A program made the translations under genes and the position numbers. Positions 6,093 to 60,244 of a stretch of DNA of 64,000 nucleotides are shown one piece after another. This DNA is from Amphirosellinia nigrospora (Eukaryota > Ascomycota > Sordariomycetes > Xylariales > Xylariaceae): positions 615,501 through 679,500 of the forward strand of contig SCHM01000008.1 in NCBI GenBank assembly GCA_004123355.1, given 5' to 3'. The notes under the pieces were generated by a model. That model did no database searches and was not told the DNA's origin. It saw nothing but the letters and a program-made list of their open reading frames with translations. Numbering within the stretch: position 1 is the stretch's first letter; each line of letters starts with the position of its first letter.

Positions 6093-8014
6093 ATGCTTTC
6101 CAAAGATCAAATACGCATCCTGCACCTGATGCCCCTGCGCAAAACGATGTTGAGTCGCCGATCGTCTGCAAGATCAGCGCCGCATCGCGCTCCGATAACC
6201 CGGATTACGAAGCGCTCTCTTATGCGTGGGACGACGGCCCCCCCATTTACCATTCAAGTGTCTGACAACGAAGTGAATGTTTCTCCACGGCTATACGATG
6301 CGCTGCGCCAACTACGACTGCGCGACCGGATCAGGAACCTCTGGGTTGATCAATTATGCATTAATCAGTGGGATCTAGAGGAGAAGCGCTGCAGGTTCAA
6401 CTCATGCGCAGCACATACGCTTCCTGCAGGCGATGTCTGGTGTGGCTCGGAAAGCCGCCCGTCGATACCACTGCCGCCGACGCAGAAACGCCTTCGACAT
6501 CATTCGCTACCTGGCCGCAGCGTCGTCGGCTAATGATATGCACAGCACGCCCCTGCCCTCTGCCGTGGCGGATGATGGCTCGGCTTTCAATCGCGCCATG
6601 GACGCTCTGCGTGCCGCTGTCCGTGGACACAACCCCTGGTGGAATCGCGTCTGGACAGTGCAAGAAGCAGCGCTCCAGATGAGGTTCTCCTTCTTTTTGG
6701 CGAAGTGATGCTGCCTTGGGATGTTGTCACAGCGGCAATCAACACCTGGGTCACAAGGGGTATCCCGTGGCCTCTGAGGCAACGGCTCTCAAATGAACAA
6801 CATTATTATCTAAGCGAACTGATTGTTCATTTCGGTATGGATCAACGTAGCTAAGAAACGATATGATGACCCCCTTGAAACGATCAACAGATGGCGTTTT
6901 CGCTTAGCGACAAATCCTAGAGACAAAGTCTTTGGTCTGTTTGGTCTTTTCCCGGCAGGAAGTTGTAAGCTATCCATAGAGTCGTCTCTTCCTGTTTTAG
7001 CTCGTGGAGGCCAAATTCTCCTAATGATTCTGCAAACATGTTTCAAGAACATGCACGCTAAATTCCCGAGATATGTGTCTTTTACCTGAAAGGGTAATTA
7101 CTAATTCCAGTGTACCATAGTGCCCCGAACGGAAGAGTGTAGGTATGACATCCCAATTGCGGATGTGTTTAGCCGTATGACAGTTGAAATGATCGTGAAT
7201 GAGAAGGGTTTGCGACCTCTGGTCGGCAATCCTCGACTTGAGGCCTACAAGGCAACGCCTGGCATCCCTCGATGGGCTCTGGATCTTTCAGCACACCCTG
7301 ATCACGATCTCGATTGGTTTTTGAATGCTACGGCTACGATGTCTACAATGCGGACAAGGGACTCGAGCCACTCGACTTGGATGCTGTCTCAGCATGCGTG
7401 TTGAAGAAAGAGTTGAAGCTGAAAGGTGTCTGTATCGGGTCGGTCAAATGCGTCCAAGAAGGATATCGACAATTCCGCTCCGGATGGGATAGTATATTAT
7501 TGCATTAAAGGACACGATGCAAAAGTGGCTTGACATTGTAGAGGGCAAGGTCGGTAATTTGGCAGCGGTTGTTCCTGATCCATACCCAACGGGCTACCCT
7601 CGGTCGGAAGCTTTCGCGAGGTTGATGCTTGGCGATGTGATCAGAGACAACAACCAAAGACCTGAAACTTATGAGGTGGATAAGTATTTCGCCGATGTCT
7701 GGGCCTTGCTGAACTCTCAAACAGTCGACGAGGATGTCCATTTGACAGTACATGGCATGCTAGCCAACCAAGCACTTATAATAACGCAGACGGGCTTAAT
7801 AGGATCGGCACTCATTGACACGCAACTGGGGGACGAGATCTGGGTATTCGGAGGAGGGAATGTTCCTTTCACACTACGTCCTCGTGAGAATAGTCACAGC
7901 GCAGAATATGACTTTGTGGGCAAATGCTACATTCAAGGCATGATGCAAGGCGAAGCATTCACTAATCATGCTCCTTCACAAAAGCCATCTGAGCAGACGG
8001 TCATTATTTACTAG
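6093..8014 (+). CDS. HET-domain (heterokaryon incompatibility) protein
   Basis: HET-domain proteins trigger cell death when genetically different hyphae fuse; the domain is TIR-like in fold. The sequence shows the family signatures in order: YEALSYAWDD near 6217, RNLWVDQLCINQWDLEEK near 6332, a CLVWLG segment near 6436, NPWWNRVWTVQEA near 6633, FRLATNPRDKVFGLFGL near 6898, and a C-terminal GDEIWVFGGGNVPFTLRP block followed by GKCYIQGMMQGEA near 7830-7950. Together these cover a protein of about 600-640 residues, normal for the family. The coding signal is spread over all three plus frames, so as written the gene looks broken. The interruptions resemble those in the essential genes of this window, so it may be intact in the organism. 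The gene borders an AT-rich gene-poor flank, a common setting for HET genes. Confidence 0.85.
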
Positions 8015-9968: not shown

Positions 9969-12005
9969 CTATGAGCTCTTAGATCTCAAGGTAATCTTCT
10001 GGCCCTTGACGCGTCCTATTACCTGCTCTGGTGCATACTTGGGATCACCTCATCGTCGTGTAGCATCTCGAACTCCTCGGTGGCATCACGGCCCATGAAG
10101 TTCATGATAGCCTGAGGGCCACCGGGATGCTCATCGAGCCAGTTGGACAGATCCATGACAACACCCTTGACGACAACCCATAAGTCGTCCTTCTTGTTGT
10201 GCTTCGCAACCTCCTCCAAGGTGTACTCCTTCTCGGGGATCTCGAACTTCTTGGGTTGCGATGGCTTGGCGGTCTCGGTCGCAGGCGCAGCGCTCGTCGT
10301 CTGGCTGGCGGGCGACGTTGAGGCAGTAGCGCCGTTGGCCCACTCGATGGAGACCTTACCCGGTTGAGAGGGATCGATGTGGAGTGAGATCTGACCAAGA
10401 CGCTGAGCAGCGCCAGAGGTACCTGAAAGAGCTTGCTGGAACAAATAGTTGCTGGCAGTATCACCGGCAACACGACCGTAGACGACACAGCCTAGCAGCG
10501 AGGAACCACCCAGTCGGTTGGCACCATGGACACCACCAGCCAGCTCACCGCAAGCGTAGAGACCCTCGAAAGGCTGCTTGGACTGGTTCAAGACTTGAGC
10601 CTTGTCATTGATCTCGATACCACCCATGGTAAAGTGGAGCACGGGCTCCATGAGAGCGACGTGGAAGTCGTCGTTGATGTCAAGGGGCATGTTGTGGAAG
10701 AACTTCTTGCCCCATGGGTCCTTTTGCTTGCCATCAGCAATGGCGTTATAGGTTGTGAAGGTCTTTTGCAGGTGGTCGGGAGTGCAGCCAATCTCCTTGG
10801 CAAGCTGCTTGCCGGTCATCTTCTTCATCAAACCACGGCCAGAGTAGTGGCGAGTGTGAAGTCCAGCGTGTTGGAAGCCTTGGAGTTCAGGATCAAGCGG
10901 ATAGGGAACTTGTTCTTGTCCTTCTCCTTCCACATCATGCCGGAGACGTAATCTCTGTGGCCTAGCTCGTCGCAGAACCTGTCGCCGTCTGCGTTGAGCA
11001 ATAGACCACCCTCGCCACGTAGGGCTTCGGCAGCCAAGAACTTCCACTTTGAGCCGGGGTCCTTGGGTCAACGAGACCTGTGGGGTGGACTTGGACCTTG
11101 TCCATGTCAATACCGTTTCCGCCGATGGCCATGACCATCTTCTGGCCGTCGCCAGTGGCATGCGAGCCGTTTGTGGTAGCCAGGCCGTAGGTGTCAGGCC
11201 TGTGCTTCTTCAGCAGGGAGCTGTCGGTGAAATCGGCAGCGTAACCACCGGTAGCCAGGACTACGGGGCCGTCCACGCTCGAGGGCTGGCCGTTGAACTC
11301 ATACTGAACACCGGTGATCTTGTTACCCTCCTTGTTCAAGCCTGTTACGCGGCCTTCTTGATGATCTGGACTCGTTCGGGTTCGGTCTCGGCAAGCTCCT
11401 CTAACCGCTGCATCAGGGCGTATGTGATGGCCATACCGGGGAACTTGGCATCGTGACCTCTGTGTGTTCGGGCTGGGAGTGGCCACTAGCAAGTTGTTAG
11501 TAAAAACGTCCATTGCTTTCATTAGATTCAGTGAGTGCGCGCGTACCCAAGCCGTGAGACCAGAGTTAGGTCGAGGTTGAATACATCTTGTAGCCACTCC
11601 ACGGCGGCGGCAGACTTGTAGGTGAGGACCTTGATGAGATCGGGTCTGGCCTTGTCACGAGCCGACTTCAGGGTATCCTCATAAAACTGCTTGACACTGT
11701 CTTGGATCTTGTGGTCGACCTGAGTTCGGGTCAGGGCACCGTTAATGCCGGACGTGGCCTTGGTGGAATTGCCGCCAAAGAAGCCTATGATGACGGTGTC
11801 AGCGTGAGGTCACGATTCTTTCCGACGGTTTTCTTACCTTGCTTGTCGAGAACGACGACGTTACCACCAGCTAGGTAGATGGTGTGGGCGGCACTGAGAC
11901 CAGACACTAGATGAAGAGCACGAGTCAGCGCATCATACAACTGGTGTCGCGAGTATCACGGGTTTTCTTACGGCCACCACCGACAACAATCACACGAGGG
12001 GCCAT
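9969..12005 (-). CDS. osm1: soluble fumarate reductase with C-terminal cytochrome b5 domain
   Basis: FAD-dependent fumarate reductase of the yeast Osm1/Frd1 type, which reduces fumarate to succinate and reoxidises reduced flavin under low oxygen. Exon 1 (11972-12005) encodes the N-terminal FAD site (VIVVGGG, continuing LSGLSAA in exon 2). Exons 2 (11838-11906), 3 (11547-11784) and 4 (9969-11483) follow, with introns of 53-65 bases. The catalytic half includes [31 protein letters not shown] and [20 protein letters not shown]. After a Ser/Thr/Pro/Ala linker comes a cytochrome b5 domain with heme-binding HPGG in [12 protein letters not shown]. No signal peptide is seen, so a cytosolic location is inferred. 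At about 620 residues it matches filamentous-fungal homologues. Five single-base breaks (near 10035, 10860, 11072, 11350 and 11475) each read through if one C is restored, so the deduced C-terminus ends at 9969, not 10019. Divergence from Osm1 in the fused b5 domain is typical of fungi. Confidence 0.9.
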
Positions 12006-13845
12006 CTTGCGCCGCTTAACAATAGATATCCCGAGCGAAAGGAGATGTTAAAATGAACAGGCTAGAGGAAAAGGATAAGAGAGGAAGGGAGCCAAAGCGT
12101 TATGTTGGCTCGAGTAATGCGGAATGGATGGTGGGAGGATGGATGGATGATGGGAGAGAGAGAAAAAGGCAGAAACAGTACGAGAGACAGGAATGCGGCG
12201 AGTTGATATTGAGAACAAAGTGACGAAGCTAGCTTGCTCCAAGTTGGGGAATTGGGAATTGCTGACACGCTGATTCGTGCACGGCGGCGTCGAACAAGGT
12301 CTTCGCTGAGGGATGAGCCGAGGTCGTCTGTAACACCCCGGAGTCTTGACGTCGAGTCTCGCCTTACCGAATTAGTCTACTGCGGATACCTACTGTACTT
12401 GAGGTACAGAGGTTAGGCTAGGTAAGTACCTACCTAAGGTCCCTATATGTAGGGAGCATGTTCAGTGGGTTTAGCGCTCGAAATACAGTGTATGTACCCC
12501 AACCCCAGACAGAACGTCTACAGGTACCTAAGCAAGACCCAGGTACCGAATTTGGCAAATTTCGAAGTGGCTAAGCTACATGTAGCACCACCTGCGCAGG
12601 GTCTACATTTCGCTTTAGCGTCTTTGCGGTCGGGTACTCGCTGACTCGAGGCGGCCTACTGCATATGCTACATCAACTTATTATTTTGTTAATTTTTCAA
12701 TTGTCCAGTTAAACAGGCCAGAAATCTTCAATACTCGTGTCACTTACAAGTAATAGCGTTAAGTATCTAAGATATCTTGTCGCATCGAATGTTGTCTTTG
12801 GGTTCAATGAAGTCAAACGGTACAAAATTGCCGAGGCTGTATCCAAACGCGGCCGAGTCAGCCGACAGTAACTACAAGTACCCGATAATAGGTACCCACT
12901 AAGTCATTCCATCCATATCTTAGGTACTGTAGTACTATGGAGGTACCCCAAGTTCCATTATATCTAACTCCAAGTTGGCGTTTCCTCTTGCTTGTATCTT
13001 GATCCTGACTTCGGATACCTTACCATCAAGCATGTTTGCATTAGCAGACGATTGAGTTAACCTTGCATATAACCAACCTTACGAGATGTCTATATACCTA
13101 GAGGTAAGTAGATCGATGTACGCCGACGTCTGCTACGGCCAATGATGATGCAGTATTTGTAAGCGGCACATGACTGTGTACGCTGGTATCGGCTCATTTA
13201 TCAATTATTTGAGGCTGCATCTTTGTTTGTTGTGTGTACTGCAACAATGACCAAAAAAGCATGTGAATACTATACCTACTTCCCAATAAAAGTTCTTCGA
13301 CCGCCCAGGTTCCCCGGAATCTCTAATACCAACATCCAGCACGACTTGTCATCTGACCACTACCTAATAAGCCTTAACTGTGGGGAAGGGGATTGCCTGA
13401 CTCTGGTTCTCCGAATTGGTCGTCTCGAGAATTAGCAGCTGATCCGTCTTGTTTTTTGAGCCGCTTATGTACAGTGTGCTTGCCTGGATGTAATTGGATG
13501 GCCTGCGCGGACCCATTGACATGTGAAAGTCCGTAAAATAAGTGATGACAACGAACTGGCAGTACGCGCTGCGATGGACAGCTGCCAAAACACGTGACCG
13601 AGTTGTCTTCAATACCTTACATGCAGCTACTCGTGCAACCGGCATTCGTGATAGAACATATACGAAGTAAGTAGGCAATATATACCTACTAAGTAGTCTA
13701 CACTGCTATGAATTGCAAATATAACCGACTTCCTATTTTCATAGCAAACTAAACTCCTCATTCCTTTCCGTCACTTTGAATAATGTAATAAAACGAGAGC
13801 AACCGACACTGGGATCTATCATGTCGCGGCAGTTCCACCAGCAGT
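12006..13845. other. promoter side of fumarate reductase; intergenic
   Basis: Just upstream of the fumarate reductase start, 12060-12190 is strongly pyrimidine-rich on the gene strand, a common feature of fungal promoters and 5' leaders. Further out (12370-13130) the DNA carries many copies of short TAGGTA/TACCTA words, several as the palindrome GGTACC. No coding signal was seen. Confidence 0.5.
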
Positions 13846-15305: not shown

Positions 15306-15827
15306 AATCTACGCTTTCCGCTAGACTATAGTGAAAATCGGTCTTATAGTGTAGGGATATGGAAACTAGAAAACGAGATACGAAATGTGCTAGGACCGAG
15401 TTTCTAACGTAACCTAGCATCTCTATCCAATACTGATCGGGCTGACGACACTCAATGTCCATGTACGAAAAGCGGATAAAGAAACGAGTCAAATTTGGGC
15501 CATACATAGGGTTACCGGAAACGGCCCCGAGCCCTTAATACCGTCCCCCGGGCTACTTTTGCAAAATCTATGTTAATGCGACTTTGCAACATCACCAATG
15601 CGCTACCATGTATTTTGCTTTGTCTCGAGGACGTCTTAGGCCGAAACCGGTCAGTGCTTTGAGGCCTTTGTAGTTGTATCATAATTTTATTCGCTTTGTT
15701 GTGTCGGTTACTTGGCTACCCATATTTTGTGCCTTGTTTTGTCATTTCTAGAAATCTAGGTGTCCAAGGCTTCTGTTTCGAATAACACCTAATTGACTGC
15801 TTTAGTCACAGACTGCAAATTGGTATC
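15306..15827. promoter_or_regulatory. divergent promoter region
   Basis: This 522-base interval separates the divergently transcribed SET-domain gene and the low-complexity protein gene, so both promoters must lie here or overlap it. No clear TATA box or repeated operator is visible. An open frame on the minus strand at 15169-15507 is an antisense extension of the SET first exon in another frame and is not counted. Confidence 0.45.
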
Positions 15828-18742
15828 ATGGCGGTTCAAGCTCCGAAATCATCTCAAGAGAGGTTGGACGAGCTGACTGGCCGTGTCGATACCCTCGAGG
15901 CTGCGTTTCAAGCGCAGTTTCAAGGATGGACCCAAGCTAACCAACCGAATGCCGCACGATATTTCTTATGGGGGTACACGGAGACGATCCAGTTGATGGA
16001 GCTTATCAGAGCTGAGAATTATAAGAGCGACGTCGGCCCGAGCCTCAGAGCGGATTCAGACGGGCTTTTCCAACGAGTTATCAGACTCCTCCCTGAGGCG
16101 GTTGCGTATGTCAAAGTAGCGAGATCGCAGATTACGCGAGTGCACAAGGAACTATTAAGAAATGTGCACCGTATCAATAATACCCCTGATATTAACAACG
16201 AAGGTTTCAACTTGCACCAGATAAGAATGGGTAACGCAATAAGACAGTTCCGTCCATTTAATCGAGCAGCTTGGAAAAAGGCCGGAAGAGACCTGAAGCC
16301 GAACGCCGATTTCGAACGTGTATACCAGGATTTCATTAGCATAAAAAGGTCTCCGCGAATCGCGCAAACCTGTCACGAGATGTACGCTCGCGAATCATGG
16401 CTACTGTTACAGGCTGCGATGGAGGAGCTTGACATCCCGGGGATCGAAGTCCTACCCGATGACAATTTCTTCGATAATGACACTCGATGGACGTTTGTTG
16501 ACTACCCTTACGGCAGCGACGAGTTCTTCTACGGGAAGAATGGTCGACCGGGAATGCTTACCCTCAAGAATAGGTTAGGAGGACACCTTGGTAGCGCCGA
16601 CAGGGCACGAATTGACAAAGAAAAAGGGGACGTGCCCGCCCAGGCCAAGGCAATGATGGGAGGGGCGGTCCAATCAAGTATCAAGCAAGAGGGAAGACGA
16701 ACAAGAAGAAGGAACAGGAGAAGAAGGAGAAGGAGAAGGAGAAGAAGAAGGAGAAGGAGGAGAAGGAGAATGAGAGAAGAAGGAGAAGAAAGAGGAGAAG
16801 GAGAAGGAGAAGAAGGAAAAGGAAAAGGAGAAGGAGAAGAAGAAGGAGAAGAAGCAAAACTCAAAGAAGAACAAGAATAATCCAATCGACGAGACCGGCC
16901 CAGACCCGAAGAAGCAGAAGACCGGGTCGGGAGGGTACACTATGAACATAGTGAACGCCGTGGCCGACGTCGAGGACTGCCTTCGCGCCGGCAGATCCAT
17001 GGATACGTGGGAGGCCAATGTCAACCGACCAGGGGTGGATCGGCTCGTGACGCCGACCGTGGACATAATCCGGCAGACACTGGTCTCATACGGCGAGGAA
17101 ATACAGCTCATCATCGACGAGGTCTACAAGAAACGTTTCCGCGCGCCGTTCAGCCAGGCCAAGCTCCCGCAGACGGCGATGGACCGCAGGGAGTGGCTGT
17201 CCCGTGCAAAGAGGGATCTCGTATCTGCGCACGCGGGCGTGCACAGCCTCATCGATTCGGTGACTACGCCGGCCAAGGCGAAGGCGCTACGTCTCGCTGC
17301 GTACAAACTCAAATTTGTGCGCACCATGTACACCGTCGGGCTGTTATCTGGTGACCCCGTTGCGTCGGCCAAGGAGATCAAGGAAGGTCTCATCGGACGC
17401 CTCGATGATTGGATCTTGTACGAACAGGCGTGGAATGCGGCGGAAGAGCTCGTCATGGGACGGCCGGGTCTCAGGCAGGACACATATGATAATCTCAGCG
17501 CCCAGGTCGACGAGCGGGAGGCGAATATCAGGCGGTGGAAGAAGATGCGGGCTGAGGTTGAGAAAGGGTCTATGACTGGAGGGAAGACTAAACCTCCTGG
17601 GCTTGAGATGTTCTTGCCGAAAAAGACGAAGAAGACGAAGACGAAGACGAAGACGAAGACGAAGACAAAGAAGACAAAGAAGACGAAGAAGGCCCTTTTT
17701 TCACCTCCAGACAGCTCTGATCATTCAGACAGCTCCGATGATGAAGTGAAGCAGGAGCAGGACGGCGAGGAAAATCAGTCGAAGGAGGGGATGTCTGAGT
17801 ACGGGGAGAGCGAGTTTAACTACAACGACGAGGATGACGAAGATGTTGCAGATGAAGATGAAGATGAAGAAGATGAAGATGACGATGATGACGACGACGA
17901 CGACGACGACAATGGTGGCGGCGGCGGCGGTGGTGGTGGTGGAGACAAGGAGTCTGTAGACGAGGAGTCGGGGCAGTCAGGGCATTCAACGCCTTCGACA
18001 CCTTCAACACCTTCGGCACCTTCAACACCTTCGGCACCTTCAACACCTTCGGCACCTTCAATACCTTCGGCACCTTCAATACCTTCAGAGGAATCAGAGC
18101 TATCGGATCACACGTTGAACTCGAAAACCTTGAAAGCCTCGAAAGCCTCGAAGGCCCCAACGGTCTCAGTTCACTCAGGTGTGGCGGGCCATTTCGAGGT
18201 GATTGATACTGAGGTCGCAGAGTACTACAAACCAGGCGGCACGGAGATAGCGAACTATTTTAAGGTCGAGGATGACTTAGTGAAGGACAAGGATTCGGTT
18301 ACAGACTATTACAAGGTCGGGATGGCACTGGGGAGGTGGCGCAGTATTACGAGTTGATAGAGACGGAGAAGGCTAACTACTACAAGTTCCCTGAAGAGAA
18401 GGTCGATTACGGCCAGGACGTCTCGTTCCAAGACATCAACAACGGCTGGGTCCTCCTATCTAACATACTGCGCCCGTGCATGAAGCTGCCCGACGCCAGC
18501 ACCTACGTGCTCGACTGGCGGGAGGAGAGGCGGCGGCGCAATTATTTCAGGGCCGTCGCGAAAGCCCAGCTGGCTGGCGAGCCGCTGCCCCGTGGAATCA
18601 CCGTCGCATCATAGATATCTTCCAGGCCGGCGGTCCTCCTAACTACCACAATCTCCCCACCAAGACCGCCTGGGACCGGCTCCAGTATATAATCGTTATG
18701 ACGTACTGGCGGTTTTACCAACTGCGGTTAATGGAGCCATGA
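15828..18742 (+). CDS. uncharacterised multi-repeat, charge-segregated protein
   Basis: I do not recognise this protein. Read as one gene it is about 970 residues. The order is: an N-terminal helical region starting with the heptad-like ERLDELTGRVDTLEAAFQAQ (to about 16660); a Lys/Glu-rich tract of about 75 residues (16690-16890); a second helical region (16942-17600); a run of Lys-Thr repeats (17620-17690); a Ser/Asp patch and long Asp/Glu tract (17700-17910); ten glycines; repeated TPSTPSAPS units (17990-18090); five YY/YF-containing repeats (18205-18385); and a C-terminal globular end with DINNGWVLLSNILRP and a basic WREERRRRNYFRA segment. The two halves lie in different frames joined through the Lys/Glu tract. 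Further breaks near 18322 and 18597 read through if one G is restored. Alternatively 15828-16880 and 16942-18742 could be two genes, but the K-rich frame upstream of 16942 is open and argues for one. There is no signal peptide or membrane segment; a nuclear or scaffold role is only a guess. Confidence 0.65.
16690..16890 (+). repeat. purine-only microsatellite tract (GAA/GAG/AAG)
   Basis: Nearly uninterrupted A/G sequence inside the uncharacterised coding region. Depending on frame it reads as Lys/Glu, Arg or Glu/Gly runs. The Lys/Glu frame connects best with the sequence on both sides. Such tracts change length easily and are also prone to sequencing error. Confidence 0.8.
17990..18090 (+). 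repeat. in-frame Thr/Ala-Pro-Ser repeat
   Basis: Repeats of the 9-base word CCTTCAACA/CCTTCGGCA encode (S-T/A-P)n. They lie between an acidic-glycine tract and the YYK repeats of the uncharacterised protein, and likely form a flexible, O-glycosylatable or phosphorylatable linker. Confidence 0.75.
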
Positions 18743-23200: not shown

Positions 23201-23433
23201 CTTTTCTTTGGGCGCTTCTTGTTGTCCTTTGTTGCTGAGTGGTGTCGCCGTTACGCTGCGATTTCGCGCGACCGACCGACATCGTCGTCGTAACTTGGTT
23301 TCAGCCTCGTCAACATGCCCCTTAACGTCATCAACCGTACCGCTCCCGACCCGATTTTCATAGCGACGATATGTGTGAAGGTTGAGCTTGTGCTAACTCT
23401 TGTCCGTGGCCAGTTCGTCGACGGCGAGGAGCA
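20250..23433. other. intergenic, mostly without genes
   Basis: A 3.2-kb interval between the FAS1 gene and SIN3. One minus-strand open stretch at 21590-21960 is listed separately as a possible exon. The 300 bases before the SIN3 start (23120-23430) are CG- and CT-rich and likely hold its promoter and 5' leader. Nothing else could be supported. Confidence 0.5.
21590..21960 (-). CDS. possible exon of a hypothetical protein
   Basis: An open stretch of about 120 codons on the minus strand reads as well-mixed protein (IKTWLDGVLHENNQPYNS, then YHEARRLIEIL, DDRQYLLLRALWENC and ending KLWVMQLFGNPLNQ before the stop). It is stopped upstream near 21960, so a start would need an upstream exon. No family is recognised and nothing on the other strand competes. 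It could equally be a gene remnant or chance. Confidence 0.25.
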
Positions 23434-26400
23434 ATGAACTCTCACGCAGACGACGTCTCGCATCGAGATCGCGAGTCCGCCGAGCGGCATCATCGCGAAC
23501 CCTACCCGACCGGCACACCCCATCATAGCAACACCGCATCCCTCCAGATCCACCAACCCGTAGCCTCGCGCATCGCCGGCGTCATCCACAGTCCCGGTGG
23601 CCTCCTCGCGAATCATGGCGGCTCCGGCCCTCCCATCTCCCTAGGCGCACCACCAGGATCGGTGAACGCGTTCGGCGGGCCTCTGCAGAACGAGACGAAT
23701 CGCCCTCACCAACATAATGCCCAGAACGCGTCGAACCAGATGTATGGTGCCCTCGGTGGCGCAGGTCCCTCGGGGTCTGGTGGTGGCGCTGGCCCCGTCT
23801 TCGGCGGGCCGTTGCAAGAGAATACCCGTCCTAGCCAGGCACTACCCTTCGGTGGTGGTGCTGCTGCTGTTGCTGGAGCAGCTATTGCGACGTCTAATCC
23901 TGCCATACCTGCTGGCGGCGCCGGTGGCAGCAATGGGGCGATGCAACAAGGCCAACAGCCTATTCTCAATGTAAGCTCCGCATCTTTTCAGACCTCCACC
24001 AGCCACAAAGTTGTCCGCGTCGGGACTCGTCGTATATCTCCATGTCTCCGTTCTCCCCACTATCCTGACAAGTCCCGTGGGAACAACCTTCCTTTTTTAC
24101 TTTGTTTGAGCTTGGAAAGGCCCTTACTCTTCTGGTGGTCAAGGTTGCCCGTTTTTAGTGTGACGCTACGTAGCTCGGGCCAAGCTAACTTATAACCTTA
24201 CAAAGGATGCTCTTAGCTATCTCGACCAAGTCAAAGTGCAGTTTGCCGACCAGCCGGATGTGTACAATAAATTCTTGGATATTATGAAGGACTTCAAAAG
24301 TCAGACGTAAGGACGAGTATCCCCATTTATCCCTCCGCCATGCAAGTTCTGACGTTTATTTGCTCCTAGTATTGACACGCCGGGTGTGATCAATCGCGTC
24401 TCAGAACTTTTTGCTGGCCACCCCACCCTTATTCAAGGCTTCAACACATTTCTACCTCCTGGTTATAGGATTGAATGCGGCGCAGGTAACGATCCCAACA
24501 CGATCCGGGTCACCACGCCTATGGGGACCACGGTGCAGTCTATTACTGGTCGAGCAAGCCAGGTCGACGGCGCACACGGACCATCCGGCCCCAACGCCTT
24601 TTTCAACCACCGAAGCAGCAACTGGCAGCAGTCCCAACCGCACAATAGCATCGAAAGCCCCGAAGCCCAGTTCAGCGTCCCCGTCGCGAACGCAGTGAAC
24701 CTGGTCACCTCTGCTCACCGCGAGCCCGTGCCATTCGATGCGCCTGCCGGAAGCAACAGCGCGCATCCGCAACGATCGACTGCACAAGTGCCGAACAATT
24801 CGACAACCCCCAGCGCGCAGCCGGCCGCCCGCACCGCCTTGACACCCACGCCGGGCATACCGCCGAGCAGTGCAAACGGAGGGAGCAGCCAGCAGGCTAG
24901 CATGGAAAAGCGCGGACCCGTCGAGTTTAACCATGCTATTAGCTATGTAAACAAAATCAAGGTGAGGCACCTTGCCCCCACTTCACCCGCCATTTAAAAC
25001 TTTTCTGTATGAAGACAACGCAATACCTACACCCACTCCGCACGCATTCTAACATTCTTCTCTGCGCAGAACCGTTTCCAGGATAAGCCGGAGATTTATA
25101 AGCAATTCCTCGAGATCCTCCAAACGTACCAACGCGAGTCGAAGCCTATACAAGAGGTGTACGCCCAAGTCACCAGTCTATTTAGCACGGCGCCCGATCT
25201 TCTGGAAGATTTCAAGCAGTTTCTTCCCGAGTCAGCCGCCTCGAACAAGAACGGCACACGAGCCGACGACGTCCTCGCCATGACCGGCTTGACCCAGACT
25301 ACACCCCAACCCGGCCACACAGCTAAGGATAACCAGAAGATGCCTCCCGTTGGCAATTTTGCGCCGCCCCGAGCGCGACCAAGGATAACAAGAAGCGCCC
25401 GCGGAACGACAAGCTGCCCCAAACCAATGCTTCCACCGCCGCAATCGACAGCCCTGCACTTGCCTCTCGCTCCATTCCAACCGTTGGTCCCGCTAACAAG
25501 CGCGCCAAACTTAACCACAAGCCGTTGGCGACCGATGCACCTACCATCGAACCGACTCTCACACCAGTCCTTCCCGGTCCACTACCACCGACTTCGTCAG
25601 CTAATGCAACGCAAGAGGAGATCGGATTCTTCGACAAGGTTAAAAAATACATTGGAAACAGATCCACCATGAATGAGTTCCTAAAGTTGTGTAACATGTA
25701 CTCGCAGAGTCTTATCGACACAAATGATCTCGTGCACAAGGCAAGTCAGTTTATCGGTGGTAACCCGGAGCTCATGAACTTCTTCAAGACCTTTGTAAAC
25801 TATGAAGGCATAGACGAGATTATCGAGAATCGTCCTCGACCTCCCCGGGGAAGGTATCATTGAGCAACTGTCGCGGCATAGGCCCCAGCTACCGCTTACT
25901 ACCTAGACGAGTAGGTCTTCCATCCAGACCATCGACCATGAGGTTGCTATTAACGCAAAGGTTTCTAGGAAAAGCTTAAGCCCTGCGGTGGTAGGGACGA
26001 GATGTGCAATGCCGTACTCAACGATGAATGGGCTTCTCACCCTACCTGGGCATCTGAAGACTCGGGATTTGTCGCTCACCGTAAGAATGCCTTTGAAGAG
26101 GGCCTTCATCGGATTGAAGAAGAGAGACATGATTACGACTTCCACATTGAAGCGAATACCAAGTGTATTCAACTTCTTGAACCCATCGCACAACAAATGC
26201 TCAATCTGACCCCTCATGAACGGGAAAGCTTTCAAATGCCCCCAGGACTTGGAGGCTCCAGCACTTCCATCTATAAGCGTGTTCTCAAGAAGATTTATGG
26301 GCCGGAGAAAGGCGCTGAAGTTGTCAACGAGATGTTCGGCGATCCCTTTGCCGTTGTGCCAGTAATCTTAGCTCGACTCAAACAGAAAGACGAGGAGTGG

Positions 26401-28283
26401 CGGTTTACGCAGCGAGAGTGGGAGAAGGTTTGGCAGGCCCAGACTGAAATCATGCATCTCAAAAGTCTTGATCATATGGGCATTCAAGTCAAACAGAATG
26501 ACAAACGGAGTCTTTCTGCCAAACACCTTGTCGATCTCATCAAGACCAAACATGAAGAGCAACGACGATTGCGAAGTACTAAAGACCAAGTCTCGCGATA
26601 TCAATTCGCCTACGATCTTGGTGATGAGGATGTCCTGTTATACCTAGTACGTTTCATGGTACTCTATGGCATGAACAACGGCCACCATAGCACTGCTGAG
26701 AAGGAACGTATCGTCGACTTTTTTGAGTCATTCATTCCGCAGTTCTTCGAGTTGCCGGAGGACAAGGTGCAAGAGCGCCTGAACGACATCGATCGCGACT
26801 CTGGAGAAGACGATGTTGAGGATCAACTTCCAGCTGAGCTGACCAATGGCCGTTCTCGACGGAATGGCAAGAGGTCTGATCTACTTCGTGGCGTTTTAGA
26901 TCCCGGTCGCAACACCACGAAACCACGGACCCGGAAGGAAGATAGTGCAGCATCTGGCAGCAAGGAGACCACACCTGATGTTGGCTCCGCCAATGAGGAA
27001 GAAAATGGTTGATGCACCGGAAGACACAGCACCATCGGATTTATCTAACGAGCGATGGCTTCCAATTATTCCTCGTGCGACGGTTATCAAAGGCGACAAT
27101 TCTTACTTGATGCCGATGGCGAACTAAAAGCTGACGGCTTTTTCCCTCGGCCGTGGTATAACTTTTTCTGCAACCAAACTATCTACGTCTTCTTCAGCAT
27201 CTTTCAAACCTTGTACAAACGGCTGAAGGAGGTTAAGGAGAGCAGAGACGACGTCCTGACCGCGATCACCCGTTTGAAGAGTAAGAAGCCGGCAAAGGAG
27301 CTCGGAATTACTATTAACGAAATTAACTACTTTGACGAGAATGATCCTGCCTCTTTCTGGCCCAAGACGGTTGAATTAATCGAAGACTACATTACCGGCG
27401 AGATCGACGAGAATCGGTACCAGGAAGTCTTCCGTCACTACTATTTGAGGAAGGGATGGAAGCTATATACTATTCTTGACCTCCTCAAGACCCTCTGCCG
27501 TCTTTCTTTAACCTGCACAAGTTCCGATGCCAAGGAGAAGACACCAGACCTTATTCAACAGTTCCTGAGCAGCCGCCAGCAGGAAGAGACCAGTTATCAG
27601 ACGGAGATCAGCGCACGCAAGTTTGCCGAAAAATGCATTAAGGATGGAGACATGTTTGTGATCTGCTGGGTACGTTATATTGCATCCATCTTGAAGTGAT
27701 GAGCTTGCTAACAGTCCTAATTTAGTTCCCCAACAAGCGTGAGGCTACTGTCCGCTGGCTGCAAAAGGACGAGACCACCTTTTACATAGATGAGATGGAG
27801 CGCCGCGATCAGTGGCAATATTATATCTCCTCCTATATGCGTGTCGAACCGACAGAAGGCGTGAGTAGGAATCGCTTGCAAAAGACGGTGCTTGCCCGCA
27901 ACCTCCCCTCCAATGACGCGGATTCAGACGACGGCAGTGCACCAAAGCCTTTGAAATATGATGAAGGCCTGGTACTTCGCGTCTGTCTCAACTCCAATAA
28001 AATCGTCTGGGAGAAAGACACCTCGGAGTACTTCATCTATAATGTTGCTTCCGAGGACGAGGAGGAGAGGAAGAGGGCAGAGGAGCATGCGCAAGCCGTC
28101 ACTGAGCACCGGAAACAGGTATTCCGGGAGAAGATGGTCATGAACAACGCTTGGATGCGTGGACTGGGACAGAGCGAAGTCCAAGAAGTGAACGAGAAGT
28201 TTGCAAAATGGTTGAATGATGCTATTGCGCCCACTTCGAACGTTCGAGGAGATGGAGATGAGGAGATGCAGGGCACGACATGA
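23434..28283 (+). CDS. sin3: SIN3 transcriptional corepressor
   Basis: Scaffold of the Rpd3-type histone deacetylase complex, nuclear. The Gly/Pro/His-rich N-terminus is followed by PAH1 ([20 protein letters not shown], about 24206-24470), PAH2 ([27 protein letters not shown], about 24930-25240) and PAH3 ([20 protein letters not shown], about 25620-25840). The HDAC-interaction region follows (PSYRLLPRR, then [19 protein letters not shown] and EEERHDYDF, about 25880-26160), then the C-terminal SIN3 domain from [18 protein letters not shown] (27150). Five introns are inferred: 23971-24205, 24307-24369, 24962-25069, 25911-25968 and 27670-27725. The protein is about 1440 residues, usual for the family. 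Frame breaks near 25365, 25840, 27007 and 27110 interrupt conserved text and look like single-base losses. The start at 23434 is the first ATG in frame; an upstream exon from 23314 cannot be excluded. Confidence 0.92.
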
Positions 28284-29791: not shown

Positions 29792-31266
<1,475 letters not shown>

Positions 31267-34976: not shown

Positions 34977-35010
<34 letters not shown>

Positions 35011-36053: not shown

Positions 36054-38674
36054 CCTGATGGGCGTTGTAGATGATTTATTTAGATACAAGGTGAGGTAAT
36101 TAATGAGATTGAGGATATCTACTCTATGGCTACCTCCTTCAATAGGATACGCCACAGATCTATGCATCGCGTTGTTGAGGATGTAGTGGTTTAGGAACTA
36201 TATGCTCGTGAGATATATACCCTCGGGAATGTGTAATTACGACACCAAGTTAGTGGCTACACGGTGTTTAGAATGATACCACCACCTTGTAAGTTACAGG
36301 TATGCTAGAATTAAAAATTTACCTATTGCTTACTGAGAGCCGCTGCGACGGGCATGTATGTACCTACACCGAGAAATATCACGAGTTGTCCCATCTATGC
36401 TAACGAGGTACCCGAGCGTTCGGGGTGCTCGGTTGAGTTCAGTCGAGCTAAAGAGGAGGTATCGGTATCTTGCCGATGTCTCGAGTAATGTTAGCTAGCT
36501 ATCATACCGCACATACCATACCATACCATACCATACCATACCATACCGTATGTACATGCTACACAACAACGCAACACGATTCCGCACTCTACACCGCTAA
36601 TAGATTGATCGGGATGTCATATCCAGCTCTTTTCCGCCTTTTCCGCCGTTTCTCTTTTCTCTCTCTGACGACATCGTATGACCCATCTATAGCTTATCAA
36701 TCTATGTAGAAACCCATAGGTATGGTAACGCAAACCCTCTAGCTCTAGCGTAGCCGATCTATATAAGCGTCGATCGATAGAAAAGCCGGTAAACCCCTCA
36801 CTCGCTCGCTCGCTCACTCACTCAGCCCTCTCGATCTAGTGTCGTGTAATGTAGTGTCGGCAGAAAGGCCTCGAAGTTACCTAGCTGGGTAGATAGTGTG
36901 TGGCACGGCCCCCGGAGATACACCGGCTTCGACACCCACCGAGTAACCGGCCGGCCGGCAGTGGTCAAGTGCCTGCCTGAAGCATTTCTTGTTGTGGTGG
37001 CGTGTCTGGGTGAGATGGATGAAGGTCCAGATGTTCGGGTTTCGTAGCACGCAACTGCGATTGCGATTGCGGTATTAGCACCCTGAGGCTTGAATCGAGG
37101 TCATTCAGTGCAGTAATGAAAGGCTGGGACTCAGACGGAGAGTGAGTGGCCAGTTACGAGTTTACTTAGGAGGTGCTACACAGATACTTCATGCGCGTAA
37201 GCCACGTTTCTTTGCGGGCAGCTCGCAGATTGTTGTAGAAGGTAACGTTGCTTGCTGCTCTCTTAGTGATACAAATTACGAACTCGTAAAAAGTTGTCCA
37301 ATATTCGCCCCCAAATCAGGGGGGATACTGTAGTACTACAATACGCTGTATGCCGACTAACAACCTATAGGGTTGCAAGGCTGTGTATCCCATGATGATC
37401 GTAGTGTACAATTTAGGTAGTAATAACTGGAGCGACCTACTTAATAAAATTAGTTGGCATTATTCAAGCATGCTTCCGTAACAAAATCCAATGACATGAC
37501 AGTACATTGCCTTGACATGGCGGGATATACCGTCGTTGTGTAGATAAAAGGAATGTACACACGAAATACATACAAAGTTAAGCACTAGCTCCAGATATTA
37601 GTAGCGTTTTAATATAGATAGAATGGTCTGACTAAAATATAGATTTCTAAAATCATTCGGTAATTGAGGCCGGCTGCTGGGCCATGTGTTTCTGGGACAT
37701 ACATGCATTAGGTAACGCTAGCATGGGAGGAAAATACGTTACCCACTATGTAAGGTCCTTTTTGTCGCCTTAGCGTAGGTTGCTAGAAAAGGAGACATTC
37801 TCGAGGTTTTCATACTGTATTTAGTGCAGAGTATATTGTTGCACATAGTCGTTCCTTGCAGATGAATTGTGTGAGGCGTCAATGCAGGAACCCGATAACC
37901 CTGGGGCAAATGACGTGGAATCACACGTGTACGAGGAGTATTCTTGTATTGATCTCCAGGGACGTCGGTCAACCATCTCGGAATCGGTTTCTAGCCCGAT
38001 AGCCCCAGATAGATTAATAATTGGGCCCCTACAAAATCGATAATTCTGCACTTGTAACACATGTTGTAAATTTAGCTGCGTGGTCATATAAGGAAGATCT
38101 TATTGGTATGGATTTCGACCTCATTAATTTGTCCGACTAATGAATGCGGAGAAATATTTGGACAACGCTAAAACTGGTGATTCCGCATGTAGTTCAGGGT
38201 GTGCTGTCCGCATCCTGGCCCTCAACGAGCCTGACGTGTTGCGTTGTTGCAAGCACATACATCAGACAATGTTGAAGAACTGTCCGTTCAATAACATCCA
38301 GGATTGCTACGCTTGTAGTATTGCTTGGTGTTGGACCGCCTTGGTGTTTGATCACGTTTGTAAGATGTTAGAGATATATCTCAGACCACTTTGTATAGTG
38401 ATTGTCGTCAGACCCGTTTCCATACTAATTTTAGGATCAATATTTGCATAGATGCATGGTGGGCGTAGCCATAGTGAGCGATCCCGGGATTTGACTCGTG
38501 GTGATTCCCCTTATGGTAGTACCTGAGTAAGTAATTCATAGAACCGCGCATTATTGGCGTGGTTGATGATAATTACGATGATGGATTGTATAGCCAAGCC
38601 TAGAGACGCCAAAGATATTGGACCTCGTATCATGCACAAGCGCCGGGATCTTAGGTCCACCAGGACGCTGCCTC
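36054..38674. other. convergent intergenic region
   Basis: The region between the SNU114 and CIA2 stops. It holds a CATAC repeat at 36512-36547. An open frame of 103 codons at 38140-38451 is cysteine-rich (about 11 Cys) but has no signal peptide or known pattern, and is not called as a gene. The rest is AT-leaning without coding signal. Confidence 0.5.
36512..36547 (+). repeat. CATAC pentanucleotide microsatellite
   Basis: Seven consecutive CATAC units, ending in a diverged CCGTA. It lies in non-coding DNA about 460 bases after the snu114 stop. Confidence 0.9.
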
Positions 38675-39676
38675 TCATATGCACGTCTCTAGCATCTTGT
38701 CTAGTACTCCTTTGAGTGTGGCATTTTCCAGAGCAGCGGCTACTCTCTCCTTGTCGGCCAGCTGCTTGTTGACCTGATCGTCTTGGCTGTGGGTACTCCT
38801 TAATCATGACATCGACACGATAATTAGGAGGCAGTGCCTGTTCGAGGCGAACCCTGATACCAAGTCCAATGACGGTGGCCAGGGAGCAGTGGGTAATAGT
38901 CGGTGTGATCTTGACCAGTACCTGGGTCAAGGTGTTGGGATCCGCAGCTACAGAAGGTGAAGGGGTGATGTGGATGTCTGGCAGATTCACCACGGCGAGC
39001 TGGCCTAGCGACAATGGGTGTTCCGGGTCAGAGATTGTCGAAATGAGATCTGCGAAACGTCAGTCGTCTGATGTCCACAGGGGGTCTAACAATGAGGCGG
39101 CAGTTGAGGAACTCGGGCACAGAACAGCGGGAGCCGCCCGGAAGATGGCGTGGAATATGAAATTCACTAAGAATAGAAGTTTCTTAGTGCAATCAAATGA
39201 TATGATGCATCATTTCTGCCAATACGCGCTGCGTGGCCGATCATAGCTATGTTGAAACGTGCAGTGACAGTCCTGGTGCTGGCGAGCGCCGTACTGCCCG
39301 TGTTACTTCTAAGCGCCCCTATCATGACACGGAGCACGTAATCCGGGAGCAATGAATGTATTTTGCTAATCGGAGATAATGCAGCCTTCCAAGTTGGACC
39401 TCGAGAAAGGGCAAAGCGTGAAAAAGGTGAATGATAGAACCCACCATAAATCTCCTGTTCGTCTATGGGCTCAATAGTAAAGCCGTCTTCGCTGTCTGTG
39501 TCATCTGAGGCCCAGGGCAAGTCACAGAGAGGCGCAGAGAGGTAATCTGGCCTCCTCAGGATGATACCCAGGTCTAGGTCAGTATTCTTGCCCGTTGCGG
39601 CAGCCTTCTTCTTGTTCTGTCTCGTGGGTAGTTCCGAGGCGTTCAGGATGGTAGGGTTGGCATTGTCCTTATCCAT
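38675..39676 (-). CDS. cia2: CIA2 (MIP18 family) cytosolic Fe-S targeting factor
   Basis: Part of the CIA targeting complex (Cia1-Cia2-Met18/Mms19) that delivers iron-sulfur clusters to cytosolic and nuclear proteins. Exon 1 (39445-39676) encodes MDKDNANPTILNASELPTRQ and an acidic SDDTDSEDGF stretch ending EPIDEQEIYD. Exon 2 (38675-39049) carries the MIP18 core: LISTISDPEHPLSLGQLAVV, VKITPTITHCSLATVIGLGI (with the reactive cysteine in THCSLAT) and RVRLEQALPPNYRVDV, then IKEGTHSQDDQVNKQLADKE and a C-terminal LDKMLETCI. The frame near 38797 is two bases short (IKE-GTHS), fitting loss of two Gs. The intron of about 395 bases is unusually long for this window. The reconstructed length is about 200 residues, as in homologues. 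Confidence 0.88.
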
Positions 39677-40696
39677 CTCGGCGAGACTATGGGGAAATCA
39701 AGTGTTGGATGTAGGGATCGTCACGGATGGGTGGGTTTGAAAACTCTTCAATGCTGATATGATATGTGTGCAGATGGGTCGATCAATTATCTAGCTTCGA
39801 GTTCCATGAATCGTGTTGAATGAAGTTCTGATGTTGATGATAGCGGCTTTTGATATACCTAGCAGAGCTGAGAGATGATAGAGGTGGCGGCGGGGTACCG
39901 CACTAGCGATGGCGATAAGGCCAGCTGGTGGCCTATCAAGCCAGCTGAACCCTGGGAGGCTGCTGCTGGTTGATGTCATGCATGCGCTACTATCAATTAA
40001 AAATGCACCCCTTCAACACTAAACAACAACGTCTCCGCCATCATCACAATTAGCTATCTGACATCGAAGTAGGTAGACACTGTACTATTCATCAATTTGC
40101 TATAGCAGCACAATATGTTTTTCATCTCATTATCCGCTCAGTCGAGGATCGGTCGATCATTGGCGCATCAATTCTTCCGCCGGCGCAATGGGATCTACGG
40201 TCCTATACGTCTATCTATATTGCTTGCTTGGGTTCTACCTAGGTATTATCCGCTTACCAAGTTCCCCCGATCGCGTACTTTTAATTGCAATGCCAATGTT
40301 GTTATGTTATAACGCATCAAATTTATCTCGAGGACCCCATCTCGCGGCAATCGGCAGGGACCTAGCATGTATATGTATAGGCATTATGTAGGTACGGTGC
40401 GGTGCTGGTATGTAAGTAATTTAACAAGAGGTCCTGCATCATCCCGTCGTTCTGCGCCGCGCGCATTCTCGGACCTTGCTCCTTTTGACCCTGTACGCCG
40501 TTGTAGGCCAGAGTCCGTCCTGACCAGATCTAGACGGCCGCTCGATCCTCACTGGTCGCCTTAACAATGGTCTGGACCAAGCCGATGCATTGGGTCGCCG
40601 ATGCGGCTCCTTGTCTAGTCGAGTGATCAATTCAGCCATCCATCCATCGATTGATAAGGTGTCGAGTAATGGCAATAGGTCAACATCCCCAGATTG

Positions 40697-45197: not shown

Positions 45198-45221
45198 GTG
45201 AAGAGTGAAGAGTGAAGAGTG
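45198..45221 (+). repeat. 7-base tandem repeat, GTGAAGA
   Basis: Three perfect copies of GTGAAGA and a partial fourth, upstream of the Zn2Cys6 gene. Confidence 0.85.
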
Positions 45222-45734: not shown

Positions 45735-45739
45735 CCGCC

Positions 45740-54011: not shown

Positions 54012-54093
54012 TCTCGATTGGTCTAGTGGTCAGGATACCTGCTTGTCATTGAACAATGCGCAGGTGGCCGGGGTTCGATTCCCCGATCGAGAG
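54012..54093 (+). tRNA. tRNA-Asp (anticodon GTC) with 10-base intron
   Basis: Acceptor stem TCTCGAT (54012-54018) pairs perfectly with ATCGAGA (54086-54092), with G as discriminator base. The D-arm GTCT-AGTGGTCA-GGAT matches fungal tRNA-Asp. The anticodon stem CCTGC/GCAGG encloses loop TTGTCA-C interrupted after position 37 by TTGAACAATG, the usual place for a nuclear tRNA intron. The T-arm is CGGGG-TTCGATT-CCCCG (B box GGTTCGATTCC). The mature length is 72. A T5 run at 54097-54101 serves as Pol III terminator. Anticodon GTC reads Asp codons GAC/GAU. Confidence 0.9.
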
Positions 54094-54681
54094 CATATTT
54101 TTACATTTTGTACACATGATTAACACTTACGATCAGACACTATATTTGATCTTTTTGTGCAATAAGAACTTAGACAGAGCAGATCAACTCCAATATCATA
54201 TGTGCATCGCGAGAGGCGCACCATCATCCCCGCATCAAAGTAAGAAAACGGTCTGTCCGTCAATTGGTGTAAAGATTTCTACGCCACACGGACCTCACTT
54301 CCGAACTCCCGATCGGATACGTGCTCCGAACTAGACCAGACCAGACCGGGCTGCCTCTGGCACAGATATGTATGCGAGTTGGTTATCGTTCGGCGGTCCC
54401 GTCTATGTAACATAAGCCATAACTCATTCCAAGCTAGCTGGGATCCATTCATCACCGGTACACGTCCGGAGCATACACATAGACGAAAGAAGCGTAGGTA
54501 CGGTTGACTTCCCGGCCGGCCAGCCGGAACGGAGCTATGTCATCCGCAAATAATCATCTAATGCCGGCGGAGGTGTTATATAAGCGGCACACTTTGCCCA
54601 TGACCTGCGAAGGCCTCTCAGTAGTAGGCAGAGCCAGCAGTGTATTCATAGGCAGCAAATAGACGGATGATCACTATCATC
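54094..54681 (+). promoter_or_regulatory. promoter region of the CE1 esterase gene
   Basis: Between the tRNA and the esterase start. A TATATAA box lies at 54577-54583, about 100 bases before the ATG, the normal distance for a strongly regulated secreted-enzyme gene. A CCGGCCGGCCAGCCGG patch near 54510 is GC-palindromic. No secure carbon-catabolite or xylan-regulator sites were identified by eye. Confidence 0.55.
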
Positions 54682-56140
54682 ATGCGTGTCTTCAGCAGCA
54701 TCCTCGCACTATGTGGGCTCGCGGCCGGTGCCTCGCTACAGCAAGTGACAGACTTCGGCGCCAACACGTCCGGCACCAAGATGTACACCTACGTGCCCGA
54801 CAAGTTAGCAACCAACCCGGCCATCATTGTTGCTATCCACTACTGCTCCGGCACCGCATCCGCGTACTACACCAACACGCCGTACGCCACGCTCGCCGAG
54901 GAATATGGCTTCGTCGTCATCTACCCCGAGTCGCCGTATAGTGGCACTTGCTGGGACGTCTCGTCTAAGGAGGCTCTCACGCATAATGGTGGCGCGGATA
55001 GTAATTCCATCGCCAATATGGTGACGTATACATTAAATAAGTGTAAGTCGTTCTGTATTTGAACCCAGCATGCTTGTGGATCATGCTTGAAATGGCGATA
55101 ATTGACTTTGAGCGTTGTAGACAACGGGGACAAATCTCGGGTGTTCGTCACCGGAACATCGTCCGGTGCCATGATGACGGTGGGCCATGCGCCTCTCACC
55201 CACCCCCTATTCCCCACGTCACTAACACTACCCAGAACGTACTGGCAGCAACATACCCCGATGTGTTCGCCGCAGGCATCGCGTACGCCGGGGTGCCCGC
55301 CACCTGCTTTTACACGGGTACCGTCGACGGGTGGAACAGCACATGCTCGCAAGGCCAGCTGAATCTCAGCCAGGAGTACTGGGCCGATGCGGCGAAGAAC
55401 GCGTACCCTGGGTATACCGGTGCCCGACCGCGCATGCGGATTCACCACGGCACGGCGGATACCACGCTCTACCCGCAGAATTACTACGAGACGATTAAGC
55501 AGTGGACTGGCATCTTTGGATACTCGACTACGCCCACTGCTACGTATCCCAACACGCCTAGGAGTCCGTATACGCGCTATGTGTTTGGACCTAATGTTGA
55601 GGGTGTTTTAGGCGAGGTGAGTGAGCTAGTTCTCCCTGAGTTTCTACTCCCGGGGCTAGCTTAGTGTCGTGGTGGTAAAGGGCAAGGTACTGACTTGGCT
55701 TATTAGGGCATAACTCATAGTATTGATATCTTTGGTGATGCTGACATGGAGTGGTTCGGGTTTACGGTAAGTTTTTCTGGCCGTGACATATAGTTGTTGA
55801 ATCAGAGCAGCGACAATCCACCAACTGACTGTCGTAGGATTCGAGTACCACGACCACGACAACGGGACCGACTTCCACCATAACGACCACCACAAAAGCG
55901 ACGGCTACACCAACGGCGGGAGCTGGGGAGCGCAATACGCTCAATGCGGTGGTATTGGATGGACGGGTGCGACCACGGTATGTCTTTAGCGGCTGTTTTG
56001 ACTCCTGAAGAAGCTAACCGGGCTTCTTGTGCAGTGCGCGAGTCCATTCACATGCAAGAAATTAAACGACTGTAAGTGAGATCTCGTCTTCGGGGGTTTG
56101 CCTGGCTAACACGAAATTAGATTATTCTCAATGCCTTTGA
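54682..56140 (+). CDS. secreted CE1 esterase (acetyl xylan/feruloyl) with CBM1
   Basis: Removes acetyl or feruloyl groups from plant xylan, extracellular. The ATG at 54682 opens a signal peptide (MRVFSSILALCGLAAGA); an in-frame ATG at 54667 only adds MITII. The mature part starts SLQQVTDFG, the CE1 pattern, with the YVPDKLATNPAIIVAIHYC oxyanion region, CWDVSS, the nucleophile motif GTSSG (VTGTSSGAMMT) and a late catalytic histidine expected in GITHSIDIFGDADMEW. A Thr/Ser/Pro linker leads to a C-terminal CBM1 (QCGGIGWTG, then CASPFTC and YYSQCL), which binds cellulose. Introns: 55043-55120, 55180-55235, 55617-55706, 55767-55837, 55978-56034 and 56072-56120. One break near 55926 fits loss of one G. 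The length is about 350 residues. Acetyl xylan esterase is favoured over feruloyl esterase, but the two are close in this family. Confidence 0.87.
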
Positions 56141-57389: not shown

Positions 57390-58061
57390 ATCGTTCGTGG
57401 ACGAACGTATATGTGTATGATGGCCGCTATAATATACGATATGGGAATGCCGCGCTCTCAAGTGTTCAAGTGTAGGGGGCGTAACACGCGATGGCTAATT
57501 ACTTGTGAGGGCAATATATGGAGTGATACGCGAATTATTATTCATAACCCAACTTTTGTAATCAAGCCTGATTCATACCCCACATCCTCAGGTTGTTCAA
57601 GTACCTATGGTATGTCAATTGAAATTAAGTGATTATCATATGGAGGCCATATAAGCTTCGAGGCGGTGGAGCAGCCCATAACCCGAAGCGGGAGAACGGC
57701 CCCACTATATTGCCTCCTAATCCATGCTGGGGTAGAAGCTTAGGGTGGTACGGGTGGTACTGTGGTGATACTGTGGTGGACGTGCGCTACCTACCGAGGC
57801 ACGCACTTTAGCACACCGAGAGAGCCTAGACTTGTGCCTAGACTTGTGATCACAATCTACCCAAGATTTTACACGATCCTATCTACAAGTAACACGTCCA
57901 AGTCGCTCTCTTCTCCCCCACCTTCTACCTTATTATTACTATTCTTCGACAACAACCACCCGTTGCGGTCCACTCTCACTCCCGCTCCTCATGTTGCGTT
58001 AGTCCATTCATACAGGTTGTAGGCATCGTGGCCCGTGCAAGGGCATCCACAGTCACTCACC
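57390..58061. promoter_or_regulatory. divergent promoter region
   Basis: Lies between the F-box-like gene (-) and GUP1 (+). The segment 57880-58060 is CT-rich on the GUP1 strand and ends CACCATGG, a strong start context. Confidence 0.45.
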
Positions 58062-60244
58062 ATGGGTCTCTTCTCATTCCTTGGCAACATCTATGACCTA
58101 GACACCCTCGACACTCGCTTCATCGTCTCGTCCAACACTCCCTACAAGACCGTCATAGAGGCGCGCAACGACACGGCCGCTGCTGCGAGCAAGGAACGGG
58201 CCGCGAGATGGAATAGCAGGCCACAGTCGAGATCAAGGTGGAACACGCCCGAGTTTTACTTGTACTATGCCGTCTTCGCCTTTGCCATTCCTGCCATGTT
58301 CTGGGTCACATACAATGCCTCCAAAAGTACGACCTCGACTCTGACCCCGAACCCGATGCGCCAATCTATCTTTTTCTTATGGCACTGATTGACCATCTGT
58401 CCCTCCACAGCTACGCATCCCAATTACCGCAACTATGAACGTGCCCTGTCGCCCGGCTGGATCCCCGGCCGCAAGATCGTAAGGCACCTTTGCGCCCGTC
58501 CGTGATGCGCGCGCCTGCTGACGAGTCGAAGGATGTCACCGATGCGCAATACCGCACCTTTCGAAATAACATGCCCTACCTCGCCGCCCTGGTCGTCTTC
58601 CACCCCCTGATTCGGAAACTATATAACCTGGTCGTATACCGCGTCAACTCGGGCGGCCAGGCGTTGCGCCCGACCTTGGAGGAGGCAGATCAGAGGCTAA
58701 ATCAACGGGCCTCATTCGACTTTGGCTTTGCCATCATATACCTGCTTGCTCTGCATGGCGTTTCGGCTTTCAAGATCCTTGGCATTCTTTATCTGAATTA
58801 CAAGATCGCGACCTCTCTACCCCGCAAGACGGTACCAGTTGCCACGTGGGTGTTCAACGTCGGCATCCTGTTCGCAAACGACCTGGGCAAGGGCTACAAA
58901 TTCATGAAGATGGCCTCATTTTTATCGTCCCTCCTCTCAGGCGGCGTGGTGAACCAATCACATGGTAGTCTCGTGCACTGGGGAGCCTGGCTGGATGGTT
59001 ATGGTGGACTCATAGGTCGTTGGGAGATTCTCTTCAACATCACTGTCTTGCGTCTCATCAGCTTCAACCTCGACTACTACTGGAGCCTGGAAAGGAGAAG
59101 CTATAGCCCGATTGAGGTATGATACTATTCCCCCATATTTATAGTTTACCAGTGGTCCGTCCGTCTAACACCCAAGAAGAAGCAGCTTGATCCCTCTTCG
59201 TTGAGCGAACGAGACCGAGTCTCGACACCTGCCCAAGACAAGGACTTTTCCTTCCGCAACTATATCGCATACGCTCTTTACGCGCCGCTGTATCTAACGG
59301 GGCCCGTTATCACTTTCAATGACTACATATCACAGCTCCGATACAAACCCGCGACCGTCGAGATCTCGCGTACTATCCGTACGGTCTGCGGTTTGCGCTC
59401 GCGCTCCTGGCCATGGAGGTTATCCTACACTATGACTACGTGCAGGCGATTGCCAAGGTCAGCCCGCGATGGGCCGACTACTCGGCCTCGCAGCTCACCC
59501 TCTTCAGCTACTTCAATCTGCACCTGATTTGGCTGAAGCTCCTGCTGCCCTGGCGATTCTTCCGCTTCTGGTCTCTTATCGACGGCATTGACCCCCGGAG
59601 AATATGATTCGCTGTGTGAGCAACAACACAAGCACTCTCGCCTTCTGGCGTTCGTGGCACCGCAGTTTCTATCGATGGTCCCTCCGCTACATCTACATAC
59701 CGCTTGGCGGGTCGAGCTTCGCCAGCACACGTGACGCTGCCCGTTCTGTGTTCACCTACGTTCTCGTGTTTACCTTTGTGGCTCTCTGGCACGACATCCA
59801 GATGCGTCTGCTCATCTGGGGCTGGTTGATTGTGTTTTTCATGTTGCCCGAGATGGCGGCTGGCTCGCTGTTCCCGAAACGTCGCTGGAATCCCGCCCCA
59901 CGGCCTATCGCATGTTATGCTCTCTCGGGGCCGTGGGGAATGTCCTTATGATGATGACGGCTAATCTGGTCGGGTTTGCGTTTGGGGTGGATGGGCTACG
60001 GGCTGTCCTGGCGGGGATATTTAAGCATTTCACTGGTGAGTCTCACCTATCTCGCCTCATCCTCCGCCTGATTTTTCCTCTTGCGCTGTTCTTTTTACGG
60101 CATGACTAGACTTGGGCCCTGCTAACGCGTTTTATAGGTTACGTCTTCTTGGCACTGTTTTGTACGGTCCTGTTTGTTGGTGTCCAAATCATGCTTGAGA
60201 TTAGGGAAACGGAGATTAGGCGAGGTATTAACATAAAATGCTAA
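58062..60244 (+). CDS. gup1: GUP1-like MBOAT O-acyltransferase
   Basis: Multi-pass ER membrane protein that adds long acyl chains to GPI-anchor lipid; also called glycerol uptake protein 1. The start MGLFSFLGNIYDLDTLDTRF is family-typical. MBOAT features: FRNYIAYALYAPLYLTGPVI, SFYRWSLRYIYIPLGG, and the catalytic histidine in FVALWHDIQMRLLIWGW. The C-terminus ends in a final membrane helix (VFLALFCTVLFVGVQIML) and the stop at 60242. Introns: 58327-58410, probably 58479-58523, 59117-59176 and 60036-60137. Breaks near 59377, 59597 and 59900 fit single-base losses. The length is about 610 residues, as in fungal Gup1. It neighbours another lipid-related membrane protein in convergent orientation, with no sign of co-regulation. 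Confidence 0.9.

Follow-up and report, generated by a model that had tools for sequence, protein, structure and literature searches.

In nanopore-only assemblies of Drechmeria coniospora, most errors were homopolymer indels that broke reading frames, and polishing added more insertions than deletions, with the authors seeing no clear pattern in the excerpt of the report available here (PMC7500977). Nanopore assemblies of yeast contained, according to a partial text of that study, far too few 5-base runs, and their leftover indels amounted to about 11 per kb vs. 1–4 for PacBio (PMC5479803). For MinION bacterial assemblies, the available part of the Kastor report describes gene-fragmenting deletions after homopolymers of 2–8 bases and puts the errors at G/C runs at about half of those at A/T runs (PMC12007338). 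In the accessible portion of a polishing benchmark, leftover errors were A/T-biased in the best pipelines and biased to G and C for ntEdit (PMC11232133).

The window analyzed here is a 64-kb stretch of genomic DNA, probably of a filamentous ascomycete, with genes for SIN3, SNU114, ERG10, CIA2, a HET-domain protein, a Zn2Cys6 factor, an MBOAT-family protein, and an esterase; GT–AG introns are present and the match to a SET domain is weak. A preliminary description had claimed about 37 frame breaks in at least ten genes between positions 6093 and 60244. We found support for 19 frame changes in six genes, some of them seen by one method only: nine in SNU114, three in an OSM1-like gene, two each in SIN3, the HET-domain gene, and the MBOAT-family gene, and one in CIA2. 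Three lines of test were combined, namely frame- and intron-aware alignment, positions of Pfam profile matches, and a codon model. For the alignments, we wrote a protein-to-DNA aligner that permits one- and two-base frame changes, GT–AG introns, and in-frame stops, using PDB matches as references. The set aligned residue by residue consisted of six genes (SNU114, OSM1-like, ERG10, SIN3, esterase, and CIA2; 8393 aligned bases), and none of the six alignments used an in-frame stop.

SNU114 is an essential splicing factor, and successive parts of solved SNU114 chains match three different frames of its gene (32166–36050, + strand). The alignment of 978 codons places nine frame changes, near 32190, 32255, 32427, 32705, 32884, 34227, 35614, 35766, and 35852, consisting of seven one-base losses, one gain, and one two-base loss. 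The result was unchanged across three penalty settings, no in-frame stop occurs over the 978 codons, and five of the nine changes were recovered by the stricter codon model. As the homologous text is unbroken and has no spare bases at the changes, no intron fits there, and the claim of single-base changes inside conserved text, with an essential gene included, is borne out. Identity to the reference is 756/968 scored codons; it amounts to 186/251 at most 15 codons from a break and 570/717 elsewhere, in agreement with the earlier statement that the protein text around the breaks is spared. Two introns were placed on the same strand, at 34454 (188 bp) and at 34730; the latter, spanning 34730–35491, has a consensus-like donor and, at 762 bp, is long for such a fungus. 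At 35544–35625, an out-of-frame reading of the window matches residues about 842–866 of PDB 9l5r_C (SNU114), whereas a conserved motif is read there in human SNU114 and in the proper frame of the window. To judge from these sequences, the reference protein itself may carry a frame-shifted stretch.

The OSM1-like gene encodes a fumarate reductase with a cytochrome b5 domain (approximately 10022–12047, − strand); three of its frames match PDB 5glg_A/6ku6_B, and cytochrome b5 chains match as well. Its three supported changes comprise two losses shown by alignment, near 11063 and at 10878–10836, and one near 11347 shown by the codon model only, the calls of the model being at 11347, 11066, and 10836. 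An intron lies near 11546. Two rows were dropped: a gain at 11475, judged an intron-end effect, which borders an unaligned stretch in which a longer intron (87 bp) is placed by the codon model, and a loss at 11805, called by the stricter codon model, that the first, lenient one explained by an intron. For the SIN3 co-repressor (23386–28283, + strand), alignment and codon model together support two changes, near 25831 by alignment and near 25361 by the codon model only, and introns at 24307, 24962, 25911, and 27670. At 25.83 kb, the aligner gives one change but the codon model disagrees, calling a gain together with a loss. Its calls at 23432, 23941, 25828, 25880, 27010, and 27075 were dropped as lying in linkers or conflicting with the aligned change; among the intron proposals, those at 24533 (378 bp) and 25231 (221 bp) were set aside as linker-length effects and that at 27008 (123 bp) is doubtful. 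CIA2 (MIP18 family; approximately 38400–39697, − strand), analyzed by alignment and codon model, had been named among the broken genes: its 74 aligned codons are unbroken, and the one change that can be upheld, near 38792, comes from the codon model only.

In the HET-domain gene (approximately 6060–8011, + strand), profile positions 17–66, 66–104, and 120–146 match in three successive frames, the first stretch passing the Pfam cut-off and the second and third falling below it. One change is located near 6386, the other in the interval 6502–6556. With spacings of −4 and 53 nt between the stretches, an intron has no space in one case and little in the other, and at the first change the homologous text runs on without spare bases, such that an intron cannot fit. 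In the MBOAT-family gene (approximately 58056–60241, + strand), profile positions 22–112 and 213–303 match in different frames 247 nt apart. This shows one net change of frame within 59347–59595, which we counted as two, as the open middle frame suggests; model calls at 58323, 58415, and 58479 were excluded from the 19. The codon model gave no segment over the HET-domain gene, nor over the MBOAT-family gene past 59081.

Several genes, or the aligned parts of them, are clean, and the statement that nearly every conserved gene is broken is not confirmed. The acetyl-CoA acetyltransferase ERG10 (29795–31266, − strand), earlier listed as broken, aligns over 396 codons in one continuous reading, and its interruptions are three introns, at 31198 (115 bp, weak donor), 31033 (69 bp), and 30888 (88 bp), with no frame break; this is the only gene for which the interruptions previously counted as breaks can be identified. 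The absence of changes from ERG10 fits the pooled rate (P = 0.14). No frame break was found over the 134 aligned codons of the acetylxylan/feruloyl esterase-like gene (54652–55661, + strand), which contains two introns, one of 78 bp at 55043 and one of 56 bp at 55180. Further intact text for comparison is provided by the aligned part of CIA2 and by an unbroken 293-aa ORF at 60759–61637 (− strand), for which no Pfam family was found. The 293-aa ORF, the esterase, and ERG10 are also free of calls by the codon model. A tRNA-Ser (GCT) gene, identified by ARAGORN and Rfam, is located at 54012–54094.

Losses dominate gains among the supported changes: 16/19 belong to the one-base-lost class (two-sided p = 0.0044), and among those with direct alignment or Pfam evidence the proportion is 12/15 (p about 0.035). 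Over the 8393 aligned coding bases, we set 14 changes (nine in SNU114 and five in the others), a density of ~1.7 per kb, where two codon-model-only changes among the 14 sit in unscored stretches or beside aligned parts. SNU114 is more densely hit, with 9 changes per 2923 aligned bases vs. 5 per 5470 in the five other genes (p = 0.026). The codon-usage model, which needs no homologs, was trained on 2787 aligned codons and is not fully independent, as the training set includes the same genes. The version used has stricter introns; a first model with lenient introns was set aside as it joined unrelated genes via spurious introns. In simulated controls, 40,000 intact codons yielded 0 false calls, and 79/80 single losses were detected. 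Across the window, the stricter model called 34 changes, 26 losses and 8 gains, with antisense and low-complexity segments included. The 19 exclude six calls in a low-complexity gene (15.9–18.7 kb), two single calls (56924 and 19860), and the calls on the strand opposite to genes (11804, 61104, and four at 17.5–18.0 kb). The low-complexity gene (15786–18686) has Lys/Glu/Asp-rich stretches and, at 17985–18086, an 18-bp unit in 5.7 tandem copies.

To describe the base context, aligned one-base losses were localized by the flanking codons only, leaving the broken codon unscored, and compared with random placements. For the nine aligned losses, the posterior mass next to C/G runs of at least three bases was 2.32 vs. 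0.87 at random (P = 0.0098, uncorrected for six classes) and that next to C/G runs of at least four bases 0.94 vs. 0.18 (P = 0.021, uncorrected), while A/T runs of at least three bases showed no enrichment (0.75 vs. 0.65, P = 0.37). This enrichment supports the earlier statement that losses fall at C/G runs, with the modest power that nine losses give. The aligned exons hold 178 C/G runs of three or more bases. The run-length spectrum of the window is suggestive only: we observed 10 C/G runs of at least six bases, compared with about 20 under an order-1 model and about 14 under an order-3 model, and 24 A/T runs of that length, compared with about 20 and about 28, slightly low against the latter.

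We consider it very probable that the organism carries intact genes and that the consensus text is wrong, C/G runs having been shortened in a long-read consensus and left uncorrected. An error-prone read technology would undercount the length of homopolymers, mainly at C/G runs, and the removal of single bases would break the frames of several genes; long reads without short-read polishing would be the most likely source. An essential gene, SNU114, carrying nine changes beside clean neighbors is best read as the product of consensus error. The frame changes, their prevailing direction, the enrichment at C/G runs, and the lack of nonsense codons in the aligned parts are shown directly, and that the true genome differs from the present text, like the kind of platform, is inferred. 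Points that speak against consensus error are the uneven distribution of breaks between genes, a C/G bias unlike that of the nanopore cases cited above, the smaller deficit of long C/G runs under the order-3 model, and the limits of the codon model. The proposal of a systematic sequencing or assembly error stands as the best supported reading, although its spread is uneven and ERG10 was wrongly named in its favor. Ordinary spliceosomal introns could explain much of what had been called breaks, and 12 interruptions in five genes are indeed better read as GT–AG introns of 56–762 bp (three in ERG10, two in SNU114, two in the esterase, four in SIN3, and one in the OSM1-like gene). We regard this as possible but somewhat doubtful as a general account, since no intron fits the SNU114 changes or the first HET change and the 19 supported changes stand against 12 introns. 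What survives of the original observation is that frame changes exist, are C/G-biased, and are mostly one-base losses; support was obtained for about half of the number claimed, and a dozen interruptions are introns.

The uneven density between genes would also be compatible with real gene decay, in which case the window would be a relic copy with genuine mutations as its indels, and replication slippage likewise yields indels at runs. Decay is expected to bring nonsense codons and loosened protein text, whereas the aligned parts lack nonsense codons and identity is high beside the breaks; a clean ERG10 and mostly well-formed introns are moreover found beside the heavily broken SNU114, and we consider decay very unlikely. 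Still harder to credit, and in our judgment extremely improbable, is that the breaks exist in the DNA itself and that the fungus still obtains whole proteins, either by programmed frameshifting or by editing its transcripts at short runs of C or G. The consistent direction of the changes and their C/G context would suit such recoding, but intact ORFs and normal introns occur in this host too, and a small share at most of the C/G runs in the aligned exons is affected. No recoding signal stood out in the alignments, profile matches, and codon-model results. Under consensus error, the pattern serves as a quality flag and not as biology. Annotation of this contig will leave real genes fragmented or missing, which could be mistaken for pseudogenes or gene losses, and counting introns as errors would inflate the apparent damage.

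A literature search gave no clear match to a platform whose deletions are biased to C/G runs only, which does not deny that one exists. Within the available portions of the reports, the window resembles the Drechmeria coniospora assemblies in that conserved genes of a filamentous ascomycete are broken by frame changes, and differs from them in that C/G-run losses dominate (PMC7500977). As in the part of the Kastor report on MinION assemblies available here, genes would be fragmented by spurious base losses in short runs; unlike there, only C/G runs are enriched (PMC12007338). The damage in the window is best read as an artifact of a known kind, for which nothing biologically new is needed.
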